This document shows positions 6,743-23,525 of a stretch of 32,933 bases of DNA, piece after piece. The DNA lies in IMG/VR virus record IMGVR_UViG_3300034063_000935, positions 1 to 32,933 of that record. One strand, given 5' to 3'. The translations under genes were made by a program, and so were the position numbers. The stretch comes from a virus. The notes under the pieces were generated by a model, which had not been told where the DNA came from, did not search any database, and worked only from the letters and a program-made list of their open reading frames with translations. Every line of letters starts with the position of its first letter. Position 1 is the stretch's first letter.

Positions 6743-7738
6743 ATGGCCAGCGTGAACGTCCATCGCGACCGCCTGTACCTGCTGGCCAAGGTGCCGCGCC
6801 GCGACGGCAGCCCAGGCCTGCAGCAGTGCCGGATTGCCCTGCGGCTTGACGACACGCCAGTGAATCGCCGCACTGCCGCCAAGCAGCTGCAGACCCTGGA
6901 GCAGCAGCTGGCGACCGGGACGTTCGACTGGGCGTACTGGAACGATCAGGAGCAGGGGATCACCTGGCGGGATGCCATCGCCAGGTTGCATCGTGCTCGG
7001 GTGGTATTGGGCCGCACGTCGGAGACGACCTGGGAGATCAACTATATGGGCCGGCTGCGGCAGATCCCACCAGGGGCAGCCGTGACCACTGAATCGATAG
7101 CGCAGGCGCTGCAGCGTTACGACCGCTCGACGTGTTCGTACAAGGAGCTCTGGTATCTGCTGCGGCATATCGCCAAGCTGACAGGCGTGCCGTTTCCCGA
7201 GCTGCCAGTGCCGACCTATGGCCAGGCCCAGCTGGTGGCAGTGCCTACCGATGCGGAGATCATCAGCTGGGTCGAGGCGTCAGATGCCGCGGCCTGGTAT
7301 TTCGGGATGATGGCCACGTACGGGCTGAGGCCGCACGAAGTGGAAGGCTCGCGGCTGATCGAGAAGGATTACTGCCAAATATCAGACAGCACTAAAACCG
7401 GATTCAGGACGGTGGTGCCGGTGCCACGCGAATGGGTTGAGCGGTTCAGGCTGCGCGATCGGCGGCTGCGGCCTGGTGGCGTGCCGGGTGAACGACCTGA
7501 TGCCGTGTCGAAGTGGCTGCATAAGGAGCTACGCCGGCTGGGTTTGCCATGGCGGCCTTATGCGCTCAGGCATGCGTACGCCGGTCGGCTATGGAAGCAA
7601 GGCGGCAGCCGGCTGGATATCTACACCGCTGCCAGGCTGATGGGCCACACGCCGCAGCAGCATGCCAATACGTACCGTGCCCACATTCAGCCGCATGCGG
7701 TGGCAGAGGCGGCAGAGAGGGCGTTAAGGGGTGGGTGA
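6743..7738 (+). CDS. int: Tyrosine recombinase / phage integrase
   Basis: This 331-residue protein has the C-terminal catalytic domain of tyrosine recombinases. The first Arg is R196 in YGLRPHEVE, the Lys is near 218 (STKTGFRT), box II is YALRHAYAGR (R276), the second His is H302 in LMGHTP and the nucleophile is Tyr311 (ANTYRAH). The first His of the usual HxxR is replaced by Tyr273. The N-terminal 110 residues include an arm-type start (RDRLYLLAKVPRRDG) and a core-binding region. It would insert the phage genome into the host chromosome. It converges on the minus-strand operon containing an excisionase-like gene. Confidence 0.88.
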   Translation: MASVNVHRDRLYLLAKVPRRDGSPGLQQCRIALRLDDTPVNRRTAAKQLQTLEQQLATGTFDWAYWNDQEQGITWRDAIARLHRARVVLGRTSETTWEINYMGRLRQIPPGAAVTTESIAQALQRYDRSTCSYKELWYLLRHIAKLTGVPFPELPVPTYGQAQLVAVPTDAEIISWVEASDAAAWYFGMMATYGLRPHEVEGSRLIEKDYCQISDSTKTGFRTVVPVPREWVERFRLRDRRLRPGGVPGERPDAVSKWLHKELRRLGLPWRPYALRHAYAGRLWKQGGSRLDIYTAARLMGHTPQQHANTYRAHIQPHAVAEAAERALRGG

Positions 7739-11372: not shown

Positions 11373-12329
11373 GTGCCCGCCAGCTCTAGCCAGTCCTGGT
11401 GGCTCGACTCAATCGGTCGGATTCCCCTGCTCACGCCCGCCGAAGAGATCGAGCTGGGCACGGCAATTCAGCGGTGGCAGACCCACCCCGACCCGTGCCC
11501 ACCAGGGATCAGACGCCGCGGCCAGCGGGCCCGTGATCGGTTCGTCTCGGCGAACCTGCGGCTAGTGGTGGCGTACATCTCCCGCCGCTGCCACCGGCTG
11601 GCCAAGGCCCACGACCGGGAGGATCTGATCCAGGCGGGGAACCTGGGCCTGATCACGGCGGCGGAGCGGTTCGACCCCAGCAAGGGATACCGGTTCAGCA
11701 CTTATGCGTATTGGTGGATCCGGCAGGCGATCAACCGCTGGGTGGATCAGCACGGCCGGGCCATCGCGATTCCCGGCAGCCACTGCCAGCACCTGAGCAG
11801 GCTGGAGGCCGTGACCCAGCGGCTGGAGCGGGAGCTGAACCGCAGCCCCACGCAGGCGGAGATCGCCGCTGAGCTGGGCGTGTCGCTCAGGGTTTTTGAG
11901 CAGGTGCTGGAGAACGGCCGGGGCATCGCCAGCCTTGACCAGGTGGTGACCGATGACGGGCTGGAGCTGGGCAGCCTCTGCGCCACATGGGACCGCAGCC
12001 CTGAGGATGAGGAAGAGCAGCGGGAACGTTGGCGCCAGGCGGAGCAGCTGCGGGGGCTGATCGCCAGGTTGGCGCCGCAGGATCGCCGGCTGCTGTCGCT
12101 GGCCTGGGGCCTTGATGGGGTGGAGATCCCGAGGCCTGAGCTGGCCCAGCAGGAAGGGCTGAGCACACGTGCGCTCGACGTGCGCCTGGAGCGGCTGCAG
12201 GCATCACTGGCGTCTGAGTCGGTGCAGCTGGTGCTGGTAGCAGTTCAGCGGATACCAGTTGCAGTGGTGAAACGCTGCAGACGGCGGAAGGTGCGTGATG
12301 GCGTGCAGCTCGCGCTGGCGGTGGCGTGA
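11373..12329 (+). CDS. Phage-encoded group 2-type sigma-70 family factor
   Basis: This 318-residue sigma factor starts with GTG. Region 1.2 is SWWLDSIGRIPLLTPAEEIE (8-27), close to cyanobacterial group 2 sigmas. Region 2 runs from RFVSANLRLVVAYISRRCHR to RFSTYAYWWIRQAINRW (about 56-125). Region 3 includes RSPTQAEIAAELGVSLRVFE (about 155-175) and region 4 covers LIARLAPQDRRLLSLAWGLD and a helix-turn-helix (about 228-280). A roughly 40-residue C-terminal extension follows. It would bind host core RNA polymerase and redirect it to phage promoters. It sits alone on the plus strand, divergent from the Gp157 gene over copy 3 of the element. Confidence 0.88.
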   Translation: MPASSSQSWWLDSIGRIPLLTPAEEIELGTAIQRWQTHPDPCPPGIRRRGQRARDRFVSANLRLVVAYISRRCHRLAKAHDREDLIQAGNLGLITAAERFDPSKGYRFSTYAYWWIRQAINRWVDQHGRAIAIPGSHCQHLSRLEAVTQRLERELNRSPTQAEIAAELGVSLRVFEQVLENGRGIASLDQVVTDDGLELGSLCATWDRSPEDEEEQRERWRQAEQLRGLIARLAPQDRRLLSLAWGLDGVEIPRPELAQQEGLSTRALDVRLERLQASLASESVQLVLVAVQRIPVAVVKRCRRRKVRDGVQLALAVA

Positions 12330-13804: not shown

Positions 13805-13999
13805 ATGGTCGCAGCGCAGTTGGCTCAGTCTGGGGACGCCGAAACGGTGCCCTACATCACAGTCGCCACCGACGCGCGGCAGGGCACCTGCTGGGTCGTG
13901 GTCGGGCTGGGTACTGAGGTTCGCTGTTACTGCGGACAGAGGGCCCTGGGGATCCTACGGATGATGTGCACCAGCCGGGGGATCAGCGTTCCGCAGTGA
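13805..13999 (+). CDS. Possible small plus-strand gene opposing the lysis operon
   Basis: This 64-residue frame fills the 218-base gap between the endolysin stop and the next minus-strand start. It shows coding-like composition, with beta-strand patterns (VPYITVATDARQGTCWVVVG) and Cys-x-Cys (RCYCGQ). No ribosome binding site is clear, and the end overlaps the endolysin gene by 17 bases. It may be a real small protein or a chance frame. Confidence 0.4.
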   Translation: MVAAQLAQSGDAETVPYITVATDARQGTCWVVVGLGTEVRCYCGQRALGILRMMCTSRGISVPQ

Positions 14000-15176
14000 T
14001 CGCCCAGCCGGTATTGGCGCCCTCCACCATCCACCGGGGCCCAAAATTCCGCCGGCTGTATCTGGCGAACCGTGCCACACCGCCCAACGTGGTGCCGTTT
14101 ACCATGTCAGCTTCGCCGAAGGGGTCGTGCACGATCAGGCGATCCCGGTCGTAGCCCACCACGATCAGCCAATGGCCACCGCCGGTCGGAGCCGTGACCG
14201 GTCCCCTGTGCAGGAATCCGCAGGGCACGGGCACGCCGCGGTTGATCTGCTGCTCCAGCGTGGCGAACCCGGCGACCTTGGTGAACTTCGCCCGGACGCC
14301 AAAGCTCGACAGCGCCCGGATCTGCGCGGTCGGGTCAACCGTGTCCCCGTACTGCAGCACCCGCTTGAGATATTGATCGTCGCCATTGGCGCCCTTGAGG
14401 GTGCCGGGCCGCAGATACTGCAGCAGCATGGCGCAGGAGCTGCTGAAACACATCCGCGCCGCCTGGCTCCGATCGGCGCTGTCCATCTGCGCGAACCAGG
14501 GCACCTGCAGCGGGTTGCCGTAGCCCGTGGATTGCTGCAGCTCCTGTCCCACGAACAGCGCCACCTCTGCAGCCCGGCGACGGGTCAGGCCGGGCAGTTC
14601 CTTGCCGTCGGCCTTGTTCCACCGGGGCAGCTCCTCCGTCACCACCTTGGCCGGATCCTCCCCCGACAGGATGCGGCGCCGCAGGGTGCTGTCCTCCACT
14701 GCCCCGAGGCCGATGTTGTAGGCCCAGCTCAGCAGCGCAGCGACCCTGTTCGGCTGCCAGCTGGCGGCCGCCGGCAGCAGGGAGATCAGCCCCGGCCCCC
14801 GCAGGTTGAGCAGGTCGAGCCGGAGCAGCTCAACGGCCCTGGCTTGGGTGATGCTGTCGCCCTGCCGCACGGGCCCGCCAGGCGCTGGGTATCGGGTCGC
14901 GCCGTAGCCGATCGCCCATGCGTTGCCAGTGTCCCGGTAGGCCTGCAGCCGGCAACCCTCAAACTCCTTGATGATCTCCTCAGCCGTTGCCAGCCATGCC
15001 GGCTCGGGCGCGGGCGCTGCCGGACTGCCCTGGGCCCGCCACAGCTCGGTGAATTCCTGGCGCTGCTCATTGCTCAGCGACTCATCGAGGGCCTGCAGGG
15101 CGGCCAGCTGGTGCGGAGTGATCGTGCCCACGCGGGCGACGTGCTCAGCAGCGGAGCGGACTGTGGCGAGGCTCAT
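13983..15176 (-). CDS. Two-domain endolysin: GH24 muramidase plus C39-like cysteine peptidase
   Basis: The 397-residue protein has a GH24 lysozyme-like domain (about 61-215) with the expected Glu in EFEG (E73) and Asp in YRDTGNAW (D82), nine residues apart as in T4 lysozyme. The position of T4 Thr26 holds Ala (WAIGYG). A second domain (about 225-385) has MCFSSSCAMLL (Cys near 242), GGGHWLIVVGYD (His near 336) and VHDPFGEAD, the Cys/His/Asp arrangement of C39-like papain-fold peptidases. It would cut both glycan and peptide bonds of peptidoglycan at lysis. Neighbouring small membrane genes support a lysis role. The start overlaps the upstream stop. Confidence 0.85.
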   Translation of the reverse strand: MSLATVRSAAEHVARVGTITPHQLAALQALDESLSNEQRQEFTELWRAQGSPAAPAPEPAWLATAEEIIKEFEGCRLQAYRDTGNAWAIGYGATRYPAPGGPVRQGDSITQARAVELLRLDLLNLRGPGLISLLPAAASWQPNRVAALLSWAYNIGLGAVEDSTLRRRILSGEDPAKVVTEELPRWNKADGKELPGLTRRRAAEVALFVGQELQQSTGYGNPLQVPWFAQMDSADRSQAARMCFSSSCAMLLQYLRPGTLKGANGDDQYLKRVLQYGDTVDPTAQIRALSSFGVRAKFTKVAGFATLEQQINRGVPVPCGFLHRGPVTAPTGGGHWLIVVGYDRDRLIVHDPFGEADMVNGTTLGGVARFARYSRRNFGPRWMVEGANTGWAITAER

Positions 15177-16449: not shown

Positions 16450-16829
16450 CAGTCCGGCGGTGGTGGCACTGTCTCCAGTGTGAGCTGAACATCGTGGCCG
16501 CCGCAGGGCAGGTCATCCACCGAGCCCTCGCCGGCGTAGATCCAGCGGTATTCGCTCGGCACGTAGTCGGCGAGGCTGCTGTCGCTCACCACCTCATCAG
16601 GCAGGTCGAACGATTCATACTGCCCCTGTTGGCCGGCGTAGTGGTTCCAGATCTGGAGCATCTCCGACTCGCTCAACCGCAGGAACGACAGCCGCAGCTG
16701 CGAGGCGACAAACACGTTGCTGCCCCTGACCCGGTTCTGTGCGCCGCTGTAGGCGTCGATGACCGTGGCGGGATACTCGCCAGGGGTGAACGTGCGGGAG
16801 CTGGGGATCAGGGCGGGGAATGTGGTCAC
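16449..16829 (-). CDS. Minor tail protein, paralogue 1
   Basis: The 126-residue protein (TTFPALIPSSRTFTPGEYPA) has SEMLQIWNHYAGQQGQYESF as the central helix/strand and a C-terminal RWIYAGEGSVDDLPCGGHDV. I recognise the TFPALxPSSRxFTPGxYP type start from cyanobacterial phage tail genes. It overlaps the giant tail-tip gene upstream and its own paralogue downstream. It probably sits at the tail tip. Confidence 0.6.
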   Translation of the reverse strand: MTTFPALIPSSRTFTPGEYPATVIDAYSGAQNRVRGSNVFVASQLRLSFLRLSESEMLQIWNHYAGQQGQYESFDLPDEVVSDSSLADYVPSEYRWIYAGEGSVDDLPCGGHDVQLTLETVPPPPD

Positions 16830-19800
16830 GATGGCGGCATGTAGAACGCTGTGGAGGGCGGGGTGAAGCTGCCGGTACCGTAGAGGGCGGAGTTGGAGAG
16901 GCGGATTTGGCTTATGGCGGCGCCGTTGACATTCTCAGATTCCAGGAGAACGCCAATACTTTTATTAGAAAACAAAAGGCTTTCAGCGGTAAACGACGTT
17001 AAAAGAATTCCTTTGTAGTGCAGAGTGTAGCTTGTGGTGCTGTGCTTTTGTATGGCAACATGGTTTAGCGATGTAGCATCTGATGTGCTAATTATTTCTT
17101 CATGGGTCTCGAAAATGCTTTCATCTTCGCTGGCAAGCTGCAAATTGATCTTTGGAGTGCCATCTTCAAACTCAACATTTTCTATGACGTATCTGCTTGA
17201 CAGTTGCACAACAAAGCCATCAAGGGGGGCAAGGCCCTCGGGATCGTTTCTAAAATCAACTTGAACAAAAGTAGTGAAATTATCTCCACCCGTCGCCAAG
17301 GATGTTCCAGCCCTCCACCAGAACTCAAGCGTAAACGGCCCCGAGGCCACATCAAAAGCGCTATTGATGTTGTCAAATCTCCAGCTTGGCCCTTCTAGCA
17401 ATTCTGCATACGGTGCCTGCAGCGCATTGACTCCTTGGAAAACTACAGTTTCGTAAGGATCGGCCAACTCAGAAACCGTAACGCCTTCAATCGTTACCTC
17501 CGGCGGCGGCTCATCGGGATACCAGATCACCAGCTCTTCTGGCGGTGTCGACGGCACAAAATCAACCGTCAACGTATTCAAGAACGAAACATCCGTGAAC
17601 CCACCTTCCCAGTCTGTGAACTCCACCGTCGCCCGGTAGGTGAGCTGCTCAGCCGGATCCTCAGCCGCTGGCGGGAAGTCGCCTTCGCCAAACGAGATCA
17701 CGAATTGCCCCTCAAAGATCCGGTTGCCCGGCGGCACGGGCACACCCTCGGCCTCCGCGTCCCATGGCTCAGCGATCTCGCCAGTAAATGAAACGGTCGG
17801 CAGGCTTTCAGGCTGCGGGTTTGCCAGCTGGCCGCCGGGCAGCAGGGCCACCACGGACGTGCTGGCGATGGTCACATCTAGCGGGCCCAGGTCTTCCCGT
17901 GGCGCCCGCCCGGTCGGCGCCAGGCGCATCGCAACCGTGAGCGTGGTCTCATCCCACGTCGCGCTGTGGAAGTAAATCCCGGCCTCGTACTCAGCCAGCG
18001 GGTCCACCTGGTCATCGGCCTCCTGTTCTTCCTTCGCTTCCTTCACCTTGATGATCAGCTCCTCCACCAGCTCCGGATCGAAGTCCAGGTCCAGGTCTTC
18101 CTTGATCACCTCCTTCACCGGGTCATCAAGCAACTTGATCAGCTCCTCATCCTCTAGGTCACGGACAATATCCGCCAGCTCTTCATCGGTGAGATCTCGG
18201 GCCTCATCCGCCAGCTCTTCATCGGTGAGATCTCGGACTTCCTCAGGGGTCAGCTCCTCAAACAGCTCCTCCAGCTCCTCATCGGTCAGGTCTCGGATCA
18301 GGTCGGCCAGATCCTCATCGTCCAGCTCGCGAACGAGATCAGCTAATTCTTCATCGGTGAGCTCCCTAAGTTCATCTGCTACGTCATCCTCTAGGTCGTC
18401 GATGATCTCAATAAGCTCGTCATCGGTGAGATCATCAATGAACTCATCCAGCTCCGCATCGTCAATCAGGTTGTCGTCTGCTGGCTCATCAATCGGATAA
18501 TCCTCCTGGTCGATCTCAACATCACCGCCGCCCTCGATCGCCGGATCCTCGGGGCCGGGGGTGATCGTGTCATCCTCGCCATCCTCGGGAACGGTGGTGT
18601 CGCTGGCGGAGTTCAGGTCGCAGCCTTCACCTGTCAGGCCTGAGGGGAACAGCACGCCGGACACCGTGGCGCTCATCACGTCCAGCGCGATCAGGCTGCG
18701 CAGCTGGTTGTCCATCGGCAGATGGTTGGCCTCATACACCACCTCCCCAGCCAGCGTCCGCTGTATCCGCTCGACTTCATAGATCCGGTCGTGCAGCGTG
18801 CTGCCGCCGTCTTCCGTGGCGTGCAGCAGCCGAACCCGGATGATGCTGCCCTGCTCCAGCGTTGAGGTGTGCAGGCCAGGCCGCGCCCTGAACCGGATCG
18901 AATGGCTGCTCCTGACCCGCTGGGCCAGGATGTAGGCGCCGATCCTGACGGCGTGCTCTTCCCTGGTGCAGAACTCGGAAAGGTCGTGCGACTCGTAGGG
19001 GCCATTCGCCGCCGTGCCGTCGTAGCGAACCTCAGAGGTTCGCACCACCCCAATGTCGGACTCGTTCTGCTGCCGCCAGATCACCTGGCATACAAAGGGC
19101 TGGCGACTTGTCCAGTCCACGTACTGAATATCTACAGAGCCGGGAATGATCGTGTCGTAGTCGAAGACGTAATCAATCGCCAGCGCTGTTGTCTTGATTG
19201 TGTAGTCCTCGTTAATCGGCAGCAGTGGCTTAAGCCCTACCTTGCCTTTGCTGGTAACGGGCCTTAGCAGGTGATACCGTCCCCATGCTGTTACCAGCTC
19301 GTCATAATTGACGGGCTTGGTAATCCAGCAATTGGTAGTGATGTTGTTGGCGTTGAGAAATCGACTTGCCGTCTGAATCGAGGCAGTGTCAATCAGTGCC
19401 GCCGGAATCCTGGCGCTGTTGACCATCATCCAGTAAGCCAGGTCAGCGAAGCTGTCGCTCGACACATTCGACTGCGCGTCGGCCCATCTGTACACCTCGA
19501 TGCCATCACGAATGAAGGCGTGAACCTGGCGATTCCAAACGTCAAACCCATTGGGAATCGTCACCTCAAACGACATCGTGGTCATGCCGTCATAGGTGCC
19601 GACTGACCCGCAGAAGTTGGACGCCTCGGGTTTGTTGAATCCCGTTTGAGGAACGATCGCGTTTTCGGGAATCCAGCTGCCGGCGCGGCGATCGTAGGTC
19701 TGCTGGAAGCTGCCAACCCGGCACTGGCGTTGGAATACATCCCGCACCTGGATGTCGCCGATCCGCCCTTCACTCAGAACCAGGTGGTAATACGCCGTTA

Positions 19801-20050
19801 CCGCGTTGTTGACGTCGTTCTCAAACCGGCATTCAGTGGCCCGTGGGCTGATCAGGATTCCACCTGCGCCCGATCGCCTGCGGGCGAACACGATGGGCAC
19901 CGGATCGCCGATGGCGTGCGCCTGCTGGGGAACATTCAGCGGGCTGCTGCTGTCGGCCCCAGCGCTGTATTTCCGGCGGGCGGCCAGCCTGGCCTGGGTG
20001 CGCCGGTTGACTTCCCATACGGCATCATCGAAGAACACACCCCCGCTCAT
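16826..20050 (-). CDS. Tail-tip / host-specificity protein with acidic repeat domain and LamG-like C terminus
   Basis: This is a 1074-residue protein. Residues 1 to about 460 form the conserved tail-hub-like part, with a beta-rich start (AIGDPVPIVFARRRSGAGGI) and EGSIIRVRLLHATEDGG-type segments. Residues about 485-690 are highly acidic and include about nine units of a 12-residue repeat (RDLTDEELADIV type, about 534-644). Beta domains follow, and the last 170 residues (GPFTLEFWWRAGTS and onwards) look like a LamG/concanavalin-like carbohydrate-binding domain. That terminal part is encoded by markedly AT-richer DNA. It probably contacts the host surface. The repeats may form a flexible or calcium-binding stalk. 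Confidence 0.75.
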   Translation of the reverse strand: MSGGVFFDDAVWEVNRRTQARLAARRKYSAGADSSSPLNVPQQAHAIGDPVPIVFARRRSGAGGILISPRATECRFENDVNNAVTAYYHLVLSEGRIGDIQVRDVFQRQCRVGSFQQTYDRRAGSWIPENAIVPQTGFNKPEASNFCGSVGTYDGMTTMSFEVTIPNGFDVWNRQVHAFIRDGIEVYRWADAQSNVSSDSFADLAYWMMVNSARIPAALIDTASIQTASRFLNANNITTNCWITKPVNYDELVTAWGRYHLLRPVTSKGKVGLKPLLPINEDYTIKTTALAIDYVFDYDTIIPGSVDIQYVDWTSRQPFVCQVIWRQQNESDIGVVRTSEVRYDGTAANGPYESHDLSEFCTREEHAVRIGAYILAQRVRSSHSIRFRARPGLHTSTLEQGSIIRVRLLHATEDGGSTLHDRIYEVERIQRTLAGEVVYEANHLPMDNQLRSLIALDVMSATVSGVLFPSGLTGEGCDLNSASDTTVPEDGEDDTITPGPEDPAIEGGGDVEIDQEDYPIDEPADDNLIDDAELDEFIDDLTDDELIEIIDDLEDDVADELRELTDEELADLVRELDDEDLADLIRDLTDEELEELFEELTPEEVRDLTDEELADEARDLTDEELADIVRDLEDEELIKLLDDPVKEVIKEDLDLDFDPELVEELIIKVKEAKEEQEADDQVDPLAEYEAGIYFHSATWDETTLTVAMRLAPTGRAPREDLGPLDVTIASTSVVALLPGGQLANPQPESLPTVSFTGEIAEPWDAEAEGVPVPPGNRIFEGQFVISFGEGDFPPAAEDPAEQLTYRATVEFTDWEGGFTDVSFLNTLTVDFVPSTPPEELVIWYPDEPPPEVTIEGVTVSELADPYETVVFQGVNALQAPYAELLEGPSWRFDNINSAFDVASGPFTLEFWWRAGTSLATGGDNFTTFVQVDFRNDPEGLAPLDGFVVQLSSRYVIENVEFEDGTPKINLQLASEDESIFETHEEIISTSDATSLNHVAIQKHSTTSYTLHYKGILLTSFTAESLLFSNKSIGVLLESENVNGAAISQIRLSNSALYGTGSFTPPSTAFYMPPS
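18171..18236 (-). repeat. Exact 30-base direct repeat within the acidic domain
   Basis: The 30 bases at 18171-18200 recur exactly at 18207-18236, offset by 36 bases (12 codons). They encode the adjacent units RDLTDEELADEA and RDLTDEELADIV. Less perfect copies continue over about 18120-18450. The exact repeat implies recent duplication or gene conversion, and unit number could vary. Confidence 0.8.
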
Positions 20051-20505
20051 AACCTGGCCCCCACTCCCATCAGTCTCGTTGTCAGTATCCGGGGCGGTAC
20101 GGTTGCGCCAACCGGCGCCAGGGCAGTCCCCAGGCTCAGCGTGATCGAGGTGCCCGTAGACCGTGCGCTGACCGCTTGGCCATCGAACTGAGCGATCAGC
20201 GTCATTCCCACAGGTGGGCCGCTTGCCCCGGCCACCGAGTCAAACTCGTACATCCGCAGCTGGGCCAGCCAGCCGGCGGCGAGGGCCTGGTCCACGGCAT
20301 CGGAGACGGTGGACGTGGCCGGCATGACGATCGCGATGTTGCGCTCAGCGCCCGGGTCGCCGTCGCTGATTCCCGGTACATCGAACTGGACGTGATCCCA
20401 TTGGAAGGTCTCAAACGAAACCGTCCCAGACCAGTACATCTGCCACCGCGCACGGACGACGTTCCCCAGATCAGAGAACCGCAGCAGCTGCGCCTGTGCC
20501 CTCAT
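20047..20505 (-). CDS. Tail assembly/minor tail protein
   Basis: This 152-residue protein (MRAQAQLLRFSDLGNVVRAR) sits between the tape measure and the tail-tip genes, with 4-base overlaps on both sides. It is beta-rich (GTVSFETFQWDHVQFDVPGI, then AERNIAIVMPATSTV and LRMYEFDSVAG). The position equals that of lambda L/K-type or DUF1833-like tail proteins. It is likely a component of the distal tail; the exact family is uncertain. Confidence 0.6.
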   Translation of the reverse strand: MRAQAQLLRFSDLGNVVRARWQMYWSGTVSFETFQWDHVQFDVPGISDGDPGAERNIAIVMPATSTVSDAVDQALAAGWLAQLRMYEFDSVAGASGPPVGMTLIAQFDGQAVSARSTGTSITLSLGTALAPVGATVPPRILTTRLMGVGARL

Positions 20506-23500
20506 AGTCCCCCCAGCGCCAGCCTGGCCTCAGGTCTGCGCAGGTCGTCAAACACCCGCTCAGCCACCCGCTGCAGGCCGCGTTCAAAGTCATCCACCGA
20601 GACCCAGCGGGAGCCGTCCGCCTGCTGCAGCACCGGGCCGGTGGTGATGTTGATCTGAGCTCGCCGGGTTGTGGTGGAGCCCGCGTCGCTGGCGGCGGTG
20701 GAGGGGATCACGTCCGCGCCGCGCTGCCCCGCCAGGAACCGGGAGCTGGCGGCCTGCATCTTGGATTCGGGAATGATGTACTCGCGCTCCCCGCCCTCGC
20801 CCACCATGGCCAGTGTGGGGCGGCTGACGATGCCGCCTTCGGCGAAGGCGGGAACAGTGATGGTGGGGATCAGCGGAATGTCAGAGCCGGGCAGTGCATT
20901 GAACGCCTTGATTAACCGGTTGATCAGCCCCGCCACGGTGTTGATCCGGCTGGCGACGTACTGCAGCATCCCGCGCACCGCGCTCTGGATGCTCTCGATC
21001 ATTCCAGTCCAGATCCCCTGCACGAAATCGGCCACGCTGCGCATGGCGCGGGGCATGAACTCGATCACGGTTTGCCATGCGCTGGCGATCGGTTCAGCGA
21101 CGTACTGCCTGAACCCCTGCCCCAGGCTGTTCCATGCGCCAACGATCGCGTTGCTTGCGCCAACCATCAGATCGCCGATCGAGTTCATCAGCGCCACCCA
21201 TGCGTTGCTCACGGGCCCAACCAGGTAGGTATTGAACGCCTGGGCCAGCGAGTTCCACGCCGAGTTGATCAGCTGCACCACCGACCGGATGGCCGCATCC
21301 AACCCCTGGGCCAGGGCGGTCCACGCCCGCTGAATCGGTGCCACGACGTAGGTACTGAAACTGTCCGTGATCGCGTCCCAGCTGGTGCGCAGCAGGCCCG
21401 CAGCAGCGCTGAGCAGACGGGGCAGCGCCTGCACCAAGGTGGCCCACCCGGCTTGAATCGGTTTCACCACCAGCTCGCCGAACGACTGGGTCAGCGGCTG
21501 GAACACGTTGGAGCGCAGCCAGTCAACCGCTGCCGACGCCGGCCGCCGAATTAGGATTTCCCACAGCGCCATCCATGGCCGGATCAGCAAGGTGTCAACC
21601 ACAGCCCAGGCGACCTTGAGGCCTACATCAAAGGCGGTGCGCACGAAGCCGAAGTAGGCAGTCACCGCACCCCTCAATCCATCCCAGACGCCAGCCCAGA
21701 ATTCACGGATGGGCTCACCCCACTGCCACAGCGCCTGTAGACCCTGGCCAATGGCGGGCCCCAGCCAGGCGAAGAATCCGGTTACCACCTCTTTCACTGC
21801 ATCCCATGCACCGACCCAGAACTCACGGATCGGCTCGCCCAGATCCCAGAGCACCTTGATGCCGTCAACCAAGGCACCTGCGAACCATGCGAAGAACGAA
21901 CGGATGGCGTCCCGCGCTGCGGTCCAAGCGCTGACCATGAACTGTGGGATCTGCAGTGCCCATGCGCCGATGGTCTTGGCGCCCTCCGCCAGCTTGCCGG
22001 CGAGCCAGCCGAGGAACTCCATGATCGGTTTGCGGAACGCGATTGCCATGGCCACCACGGCGGCGATGGCCAGCACGGTCCAGCCAACAGGGCCCAAGAA
22101 GGCCAGCAAGCCAGGAATGAACACGCTGCCGACCCAGCCGATGAATCCCAGCAGGGCGCCTTTCATTGCGGCTACCGCAACGATCACCACGGTCTGCAGG
22201 CCGGCCCAGCCCACCGCTAGGGATGAGATCGCGAGCATTGCCTTGAGGCTGCCCAGCAGAGTGATGAGCGACACGATCGCTGGCGCCAAGATCACCAGCC
22301 CGGCCAGCGCCGCAGTCAGGGTCACCACTACGGCAGTTAGCAGCGGGAACCGCCCGGCGAGATCCGCCACGACGGACAGCACTGGCGCCAAGGTGCCGAG
22401 CATCAGATTCAGAGCAGGCAGAAGGCCCTCGCCAATGGCGATCTGGAGCGCCTTGATGTTGTTCTGCAGCAGCTGGAAATTGTTGGCCGATGTGCCAGCC
22501 CTTGCCTCAAACTCGGCCAGCATCGATCCGGCGTATTGGCTCTTGTCGCCAACCAGTCCGATTGCCTGATCAAACAGCTGCATGTTGGTGATCAGGGGTG
22601 TTATCGCTCGCGCCTCATCACCGAACACCTCGCTGATTGTGGACACCCGCATTTCAGCGGGCATCTGCGAAATGCGCTGGAACACATCGCGGATCGTTCC
22701 GACTGCATCGGTCTGCATGTCTTTGGCCACTTGGTTCACATCCAGGCCCAGCGTCTTGAACGCTGCCGCCTGTTTCGCCGTGGCGGATTCGCCCTTGGTG
22801 AGCGCCTTGATTAGGTTGCGGAAGCTGGTGGCTGCCACTTCAGGTTCAGCACCGGCCGCGATCATTGCGGAGCCCAGTGCGGCGGTCTGCTCGGTGGTCA
22901 TCGCCACTTGCTTGCCCACCGCGCCAGCCCGCAGCATGAAGTTGCTCACCTCAGCGGCCGAGCTGGCCATGTTGTTGCTGAGGAAGTTCATGGCGTCGGC
23001 CAGGTCCACCACCTCCGGCTGGCTCAGCCCCAGGCTGGTGCGCAGTTTGGCCATTGCCGTGCCGGCCTCATCTGCCGTGATGTCAAAGGCCACTCCCATC
23101 TGTGCCGCCTGCCTGGTGAACTCCGCCAGCTCCTCACGGGGGATGCCTGACTGACCGGCTGCGGCCATGATCGCGGCCAACCCCTCGGCGCTCACCGGCA
23201 GCTCTTTGCTCAGGCCGATGATCTCCTGCTTCATTTCCTTCAGGCCCTCGGCTGACTCCAGGCCGGGCACCACCTTGCGCACGTCGGCCATGGCGCTCTC
23301 AAAATCAATCGCAGCCCGAACGCTGGTGCCCAGCGCAACGCCGATGCCTGCGGCGCCAGCTGCGGCGGCCTGCCAGGTGGCTGAGTTCACAACTGCGGCG
23401 AAGGATGTTTTGGCGCTGCTGGCCGCCTTCTCCGCCCCACCGATCGCCTTCTCCAGCTTGGTGATCTCTTCCAGTCCTACCGTCTTCGCCGCGATCCTCA

Positions 23501-23525
23501 GGACCGCTTCCATGTTCATCGCCAT
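20502..23525 (-). CDS. Phage tail tape measure protein (TP901-type)
   Basis: This 1007-residue protein has the TP901 core from about residue 60 to 340 (AIDFESAMADVRKVVPGLES, then SAEGLAAIMAAAGQSGI and FGDEARAITPLITNMQLFD). Hydrophobic helices lie at about 370-500. Next come long WP/IREFW-containing repeats (LGEPIREFWVGAWDAVKEVV, then WGEPIREFWAGVWDGLRGAV) and further similar helical units. Near the C terminus are AFAEGGIVSRPTLAMVGEGG and EREYIIPESKM, typical of tape measures. Tape measure length sets tail length; the protein's size fits a siphovirus tail. The downstream gene and the chaperone upstream overlap it by a few bases. Confidence 0.9.
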   Translation of the reverse strand: MAMNMEAVLRIAAKTVGLEEITKLEKAIGGAEKAASSAKTSFAAVVNSATWQAAAAGAAGIGVALGTSVRAAIDFESAMADVRKVVPGLESAEGLKEMKQEIIGLSKELPVSAEGLAAIMAAAGQSGIPREELAEFTRQAAQMGVAFDITADEAGTAMAKLRTSLGLSQPEVVDLADAMNFLSNNMASSAAEVSNFMLRAGAVGKQVAMTTEQTAALGSAMIAAGAEPEVAATSFRNLIKALTKGESATAKQAAAFKTLGLDVNQVAKDMQTDAVGTIRDVFQRISQMPAEMRVSTISEVFGDEARAITPLITNMQLFDQAIGLVGDKSQYAGSMLAEFEARAGTSANNFQLLQNNIKALQIAIGEGLLPALNLMLGTLAPVLSVVADLAGRFPLLTAVVVTLTAALAGLVILAPAIVSLITLLGSLKAMLAISSLAVGWAGLQTVVIVAVAAMKGALLGFIGWVGSVFIPGLLAFLGPVGWTVLAIAAVVAMAIAFRKPIMEFLGWLAGKLAEGAKTIGAWALQIPQFMVSAWTAARDAIRSFFAWFAGALVDGIKVLWDLGEPIREFWVGAWDAVKEVVTGFFAWLGPAIGQGLQALWQWGEPIREFWAGVWDGLRGAVTAYFGFVRTAFDVGLKVAWAVVDTLLIRPWMALWEILIRRPASAAVDWLRSNVFQPLTQSFGELVVKPIQAGWATLVQALPRLLSAAAGLLRTSWDAITDSFSTYVVAPIQRAWTALAQGLDAAIRSVVQLINSAWNSLAQAFNTYLVGPVSNAWVALMNSIGDLMVGASNAIVGAWNSLGQGFRQYVAEPIASAWQTVIEFMPRAMRSVADFVQGIWTGMIESIQSAVRGMLQYVASRINTVAGLINRLIKAFNALPGSDIPLIPTITVPAFAEGGIVSRPTLAMVGEGGEREYIIPESKMQAASSRFLAGQRGADVIPSTAASDAGSTTTRRAQINITTGPVLQQADGSRWVSVDDFERGLQRVAERVFDDLRRPEARLALGGL

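Follow-up and report, generated by a model that had tools for sequence, protein, structure and literature searches.

A predicted helical repeat array at the linker position of a phage tail-tip protein

Introduction

What does a run of acidic 12-residue repeats do in the middle of a phage tail-tip protein? The repeats are encoded within a minus-strand gene (16826..20050) for a protein of 1074 residues, in a 32,933-nucleotide stretch of viral DNA, which is referred to here as the window. The first-pass annotation, made from the letters alone, pointed to structure prediction and to the repeat number in related phages as ways to find out. The modularity of tail tips is already known, and the joints between the modules have seldom been studied.

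Results

The tail-tip gene and its virus

The earlier assignment of the protein to the tail tip is borne out by a match of residues 19-493 to the phrog_27845 'tail protein' profile (E = 1e-166), by the PHROG matches of the neighbouring genes, and by gene order, as the tape-measure gene (20502-23525) precedes a minor tail gene of 152 residues (20047-20505) and then the tip gene. Residues 1-480 (18611..20050, minus strand) form a conserved core common to the Synechococcus siphophages S-LBS1, S-CBS1 and S-CBS3 and to many IMG/VR contigs. The first ~490 residues are 42-46% identical to the tail proteins of these three phages, and their gene order is that of the window (tape measure, minor tail protein of ~154 residues, tip); their tip proteins, however, have neither the helical array nor the lectin described below and carry other C-terminal domains. 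The core had no credible sequence match among solved tail tips and none in NCBIfam, and the window matched no deposited phage at the DNA level. Because of the core matches and the shared gene order, we assign the window to an uncultured cyanosiphovirus akin to S-LBS1; the host, presumably a freshwater cyanobacterium, is judged from these relatives. The window also encodes a sigma-70 factor with regions 1.2, 2 and 3 (11373-12329, plus strand) and a fusion of a lysozyme with a C39-like peptidase domain (13983-15176, minus strand), which is overlapped on the opposite strand by a 399-residue open frame that has no family match. The gene at 6743-7738 (plus strand) is probably an integrase, since it contains an Arm DNA-binding domain, and this suggests a temperate phage; S-LBS1 has been reported to be temperate.

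Units, composition and DNA of the array

The array occupies residues 541-643 (18122..18430, minus strand), as delimited by unit and periodicity analysis and by the one helix predicted for each unit. About nine units, two of them irregular, had been noted before, and nine are indeed counted, with lengths of 12, 11, 12, 12, 12, 8, 12, 12 and 12 residues and the consensus LTDEELADIVRD. Units 1 to 5 read LTDDELIEIIDD, LEDDVADELRE (irregular, 11 residues), LTDEELADLVRE, LDDEDLADLIRD and LTDEELEELFEE, and units 6 to 9 read LTPEEVRD (irregular, 8 residues), LTDEELADEARD, LTDEELADIVRD and LEDEELIKLLDD. The array is 40% identical to itself at an offset of 12, a value that drops to 15% when its residues are shuffled (z = 9.3); at an offset of 24, z is 5.2. 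Asp and Glu make up 48% of the residues, basic residues number just 7 in the 102 counted, and the helical hydrophobic moment is high in every unit (0.42-0.55); together with the predicted helices, these values agree with the earlier description of an acidic, amphipathic helical repeat.

At the DNA level, the longest exact repeat in the array has copies at 18170-18200 and 18206-18236 (span 18170..18236, no strand assigned) and is confined to the surroundings of units 7 and 8. The offset of 36 had been given correctly; the length is 31 bp rather than 30. It marks the recent duplication of a single unit. Between units pS is 0.61 and pN is 0.30, a greater divergence at synonymous than at amino-acid-changing sites, and because the remaining units have diverged chiefly in this way, the array is old save for the one duplication. 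At the repeat positions shared with a related contig, L014, pN/pS is 0.17 (56 codons, with synonymous sites near saturation), as compared with 0.18 in the core, and the units are under purifying selection. A tblastn search with the repeat alone found nothing in 50,697 phage records.

Predicted structure

AlphaFold2, supplied with ten aligned relatives, predicted one helix of ~9 residues for each 12-residue unit and a short one for the unit of 8 (model residues 52-60, 64-72, 76-82, 88-92, 96-104, 108-116 and onward), with a block pLDDT of 74-89 covering about residues 565-634; in this ten-sequence model, the repeat region is supported by three related sequences. A single-sequence model was poor (pLDDT 55) and had the same helix pattern, and a Foldseek search with it gave no significant match. 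Predicted helices extend past the array on both sides, at residues ~531-540 and ~659-680. The former are preceded by an acidic lead-in linker that contains Gly and Pro (residues 481-524; 18479..18610, minus strand) and has low predicted order where it was modelled (residues 515-531), and the latter belong to a conserved, non-repeat helical flank (PVKEVIKEDLDLDFDPELVEELIIKVKEAKEEQ..., residues 644-685; 17996..18121, minus strand) with a long helix at its end. In length and number, the predicted helices are such as a right-handed superhelix of about ten short helices, as in the MgtE_N family, would require; among the Foldseek matches listed for the larger model, those to the lectin dominated. 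With three sequences behind the repeat model, and a single-sequence model of low quality that had no Foldseek match, we go no further than to infer superhelical packing.

What stands at this place in relatives

An all-beta Ig-like domain follows (residues 686-837; 17540..17995, minus strand), which is common to relatives with a different preceding linker. The comparison set consisted of contigs from a profile search with this domain in which homologues of both the core and the Ig-like domain flank the joint. The spacing from core to Ig-like domain is 205 residues in the window and near-identical contigs, 158 residues in two closer relatives, L014 and L015 (also designated L114 and L110), where four unit starts are recognizable, and 36-63 residues in 17 further contigs, which include several near-duplicates and hold about eight distinct linker types, mostly rich in Gly, Pro or Asp and with no unit. 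Loci found by the core alone have runs of 8-23 glycines where the array stands. In uncultured relatives (L019, L024, L025-L052 and others), Gly-rich linkers lie at the same place, between the core and the C-terminal domains, but they are flexible and short, whereas the array is helical and long. Because the homologous core and Ig-like domain are elsewhere joined by short linkers, it is simplest to suppose that the linker role has passed to the helical array.

The length of the array can be compared in two ways. Between the conserved flanks there are 108 residues in the window and 61 in L014 and L015, which is 47 less. Three contigs with a complete repeat from other metagenomes (L003, L004 and L005) have exactly nine units, as does the window, from which they differ by 2, 4 and 0 bases, respectively, over 2.8-3.2 kb. 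Array length therefore differs from one species to another, and these contigs and the window showed no variation inside a species, although short-read assembly could mask minority repeat lengths. The idea of a phase-variable length element, raised in the first-pass annotation, is unsupported because the copy number is identical in all four. The poly-Gly runs vary among otherwise near-identical tip proteins (L025-L052; for example, 16, 18 and 19 glycines in L032, L030 and L028), and they would be the better candidate for rapid length variation than the helical repeat.

The C-terminal module

The protein ends in a LamG/ConA-like jelly-roll module (residues ~836-1074; 16829..17545, minus strand), identified by an all-beta prediction and by Foldseek matches to LamG/ConA-like and L-type lectin folds (E about 1e-7, low identity); Pfam gave no match to it. 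The same module ends a different, unrelated tip-like protein (L008, L009 and L098-L100), in which it is attached by the proline-rich linker PPLPPEPPEPEPE; the lectin is thus exchanged among tip proteins that differ in their joints. The tip protein of L015 (4411-8214) combines the short helical array with two lectin modules in tandem. The top PDB fold matches include the receptor-binding domains of clostridial neurotoxins; we claim no toxin relationship, because the similarity is confined to the lectin jelly roll, a common fold, and identity is just 10-16%. In L004 and L006, population differences are few; they concentrate in the lectin at residues 928-953 (17192-17269) and are mostly amino-acid changing, with L940F and V947F common to both. 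Contact of the lectin with the host would be expected to give such clustering, and residues 928-953 are possibly a receptor-contact loop.

The MgtE_N match

The first-pass annotation knew of no named family with this repeat, but Pfam provides one. MgtE_N (PF03448) matches residues 530-608 (18227..18466, minus strand) over profile positions 13-93 of 102, with 28.2 bits for the whole protein (E = 2.9e-6) and 31.6 bits for the repeat alone (E = 2.5e-7; range 28.2-31.9), above the curated cut-off of 25.9. None of four composition shuffles or three within-12-mer position permutations matched the family, and the reversed sequence reached 17 bits, under the cut-off. An idealised LTDEELADIVRD array scored 43 bits (profile positions 4-93); idealised consensus repeats also matched several unrelated short Pfam models, so scores obtained with repeats may be inflated and call for caution. 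The short form in L014 had no match to MgtE_N up to E = 1, that is, a homologue is not recognized. For these two reasons, convergence on the MgtE_N helix-turn geometry is as possible as common descent. FliG_N and FliG_C matched the repeat weakly, below the cut-off; RasGAP, DUF445 and Band_7 also fell below it and were judged to be chance matches. A PDB sequence search with the repeat returned only designed helical repeats and weak MgtE and FliG matches. The designed proteins (DHR14 and others) are the nearest solved-structure matches and share repeated amphipathic helices, but the likeness is compositional only, single stretches having E-values >1.

MgtE_N is the N domain of the magnesium channel MgtE; through carboxylates of this domain, Mg2+ is bridged to the other domains of the channel (PMC5882242). 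The array resembles it in having consecutive short helices of ~12 residues with L-x-x-E/D-E-L-type units; it differs in being far more acidic, in the closer likeness of its units to one another, and in its variable length. Pfam found in the tip protein none of the CBS or transmembrane channel domains of MgtE that would speak for a Mg2+ role. A match to a known, fixed-length domain with a defined function was what the first-pass annotation had set against its own reading; MgtE_N does match, but the array varies in length and lacks the setting of a magnesium channel. The ARM-like domains of FliG and FlgY belong to the same superhelix class and act as scaffolds outside transport, FlgY of Campylobacter flagella being an MgtE/FliG-like right-handed superhelix that serves as a scaffold and assembly interface (PMC11870540), but here there is no flagellar context.

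Discussion

We consider it likely that the array is a semi-rigid alpha-solenoid spacer on which the tail tip carries its receptor-binding end. Each 12-residue unit would form one short helix (a T/D cap, then E-E-L-A-D-I-V) followed by a three-residue turn, with the Leu/Ile/Val side packed on neighbouring units and the Asp/Glu side facing water, and the units would probably build a superhelix of the MgtE_N/FliG kind. The tip core would plug onto the tail, and the array would fix the distance and orientation between this core and the Ig-like and lectin-like end, which probably binds the cyanobacterial surface, perhaps through its sugars. Length would change in evolution through gain or loss of units. 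Of the flexible spacer suggested at first reading, the spacer role is thus supported, but not the flexibility, as the predicted structure consists of ordered helices.

The most attractive rival is a putative stalk that responds to divalent cations, its acidic face binding Mg2+ or Ca2+ so that the array stiffens or compacts. The abundance of Asp and Glu, the scarcity of basic residues and a best family match to a domain with Mg2+-bridging carboxylates (PMC5882242) are consistent with this idea, under which the water chemistry would have to be suitable for the lectin end to be presented. In MgtE, however, the partners that the ions connect to the N domain are CBS and plug-helix residues, and those domains are absent here; no specific ion site was identified, and acidic solvent faces are common among helical repeats. 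We regard such a stalk as unlikely. Alternatively, the superhelix itself might be a surface for binding a protein or receptor, the lectin then adding a second contact. ARM-like domains of the MgtE_N/FliG type do act as assembly interfaces, for example in FlgY (PMC11870540), and the units are under purifying selection, but unit number varies among relatives although both flanks are conserved, and the majority of relatives have no array, which makes a binding platform quite improbable. It is very improbable that the array is a tandem element, variable by phase or within populations, in which slippage between 36-bp units tunes adsorption. The 31-bp exact repeat would permit recombination, and the length difference of 47 residues from L014 and L015 is in line with this; however, near-identical contigs from three other metagenomes share the same copy number, and a single pair of units is near-identical in DNA.

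The semi-rigid spacer accordingly remains our preferred reading, and the array seems an unusual building choice in an otherwise ordinary type of modular tip protein. In the literature library searched, no paper combines 'phage', 'MgtE_N' and 'tail protein', and a helical repeat with MgtE_N/FliG likeness is now placed in a virion protein. A bolder proposal, which we think has little chance of being right, is that phages exchange the mechanical class of the joint itself, from a flexible Gly-rich tether to a stackable, ion-sensitive solenoid of adjustable unit number; if this is true, then how far the receptor-binding end reaches and how stiff it is would evolve apart from its specificity. With the same two neighbours joined either by a Gly-rich chain or by a helical array of two lengths, these tip proteins offer a natural set for relating the stiffness and reach of the joint to adsorption.
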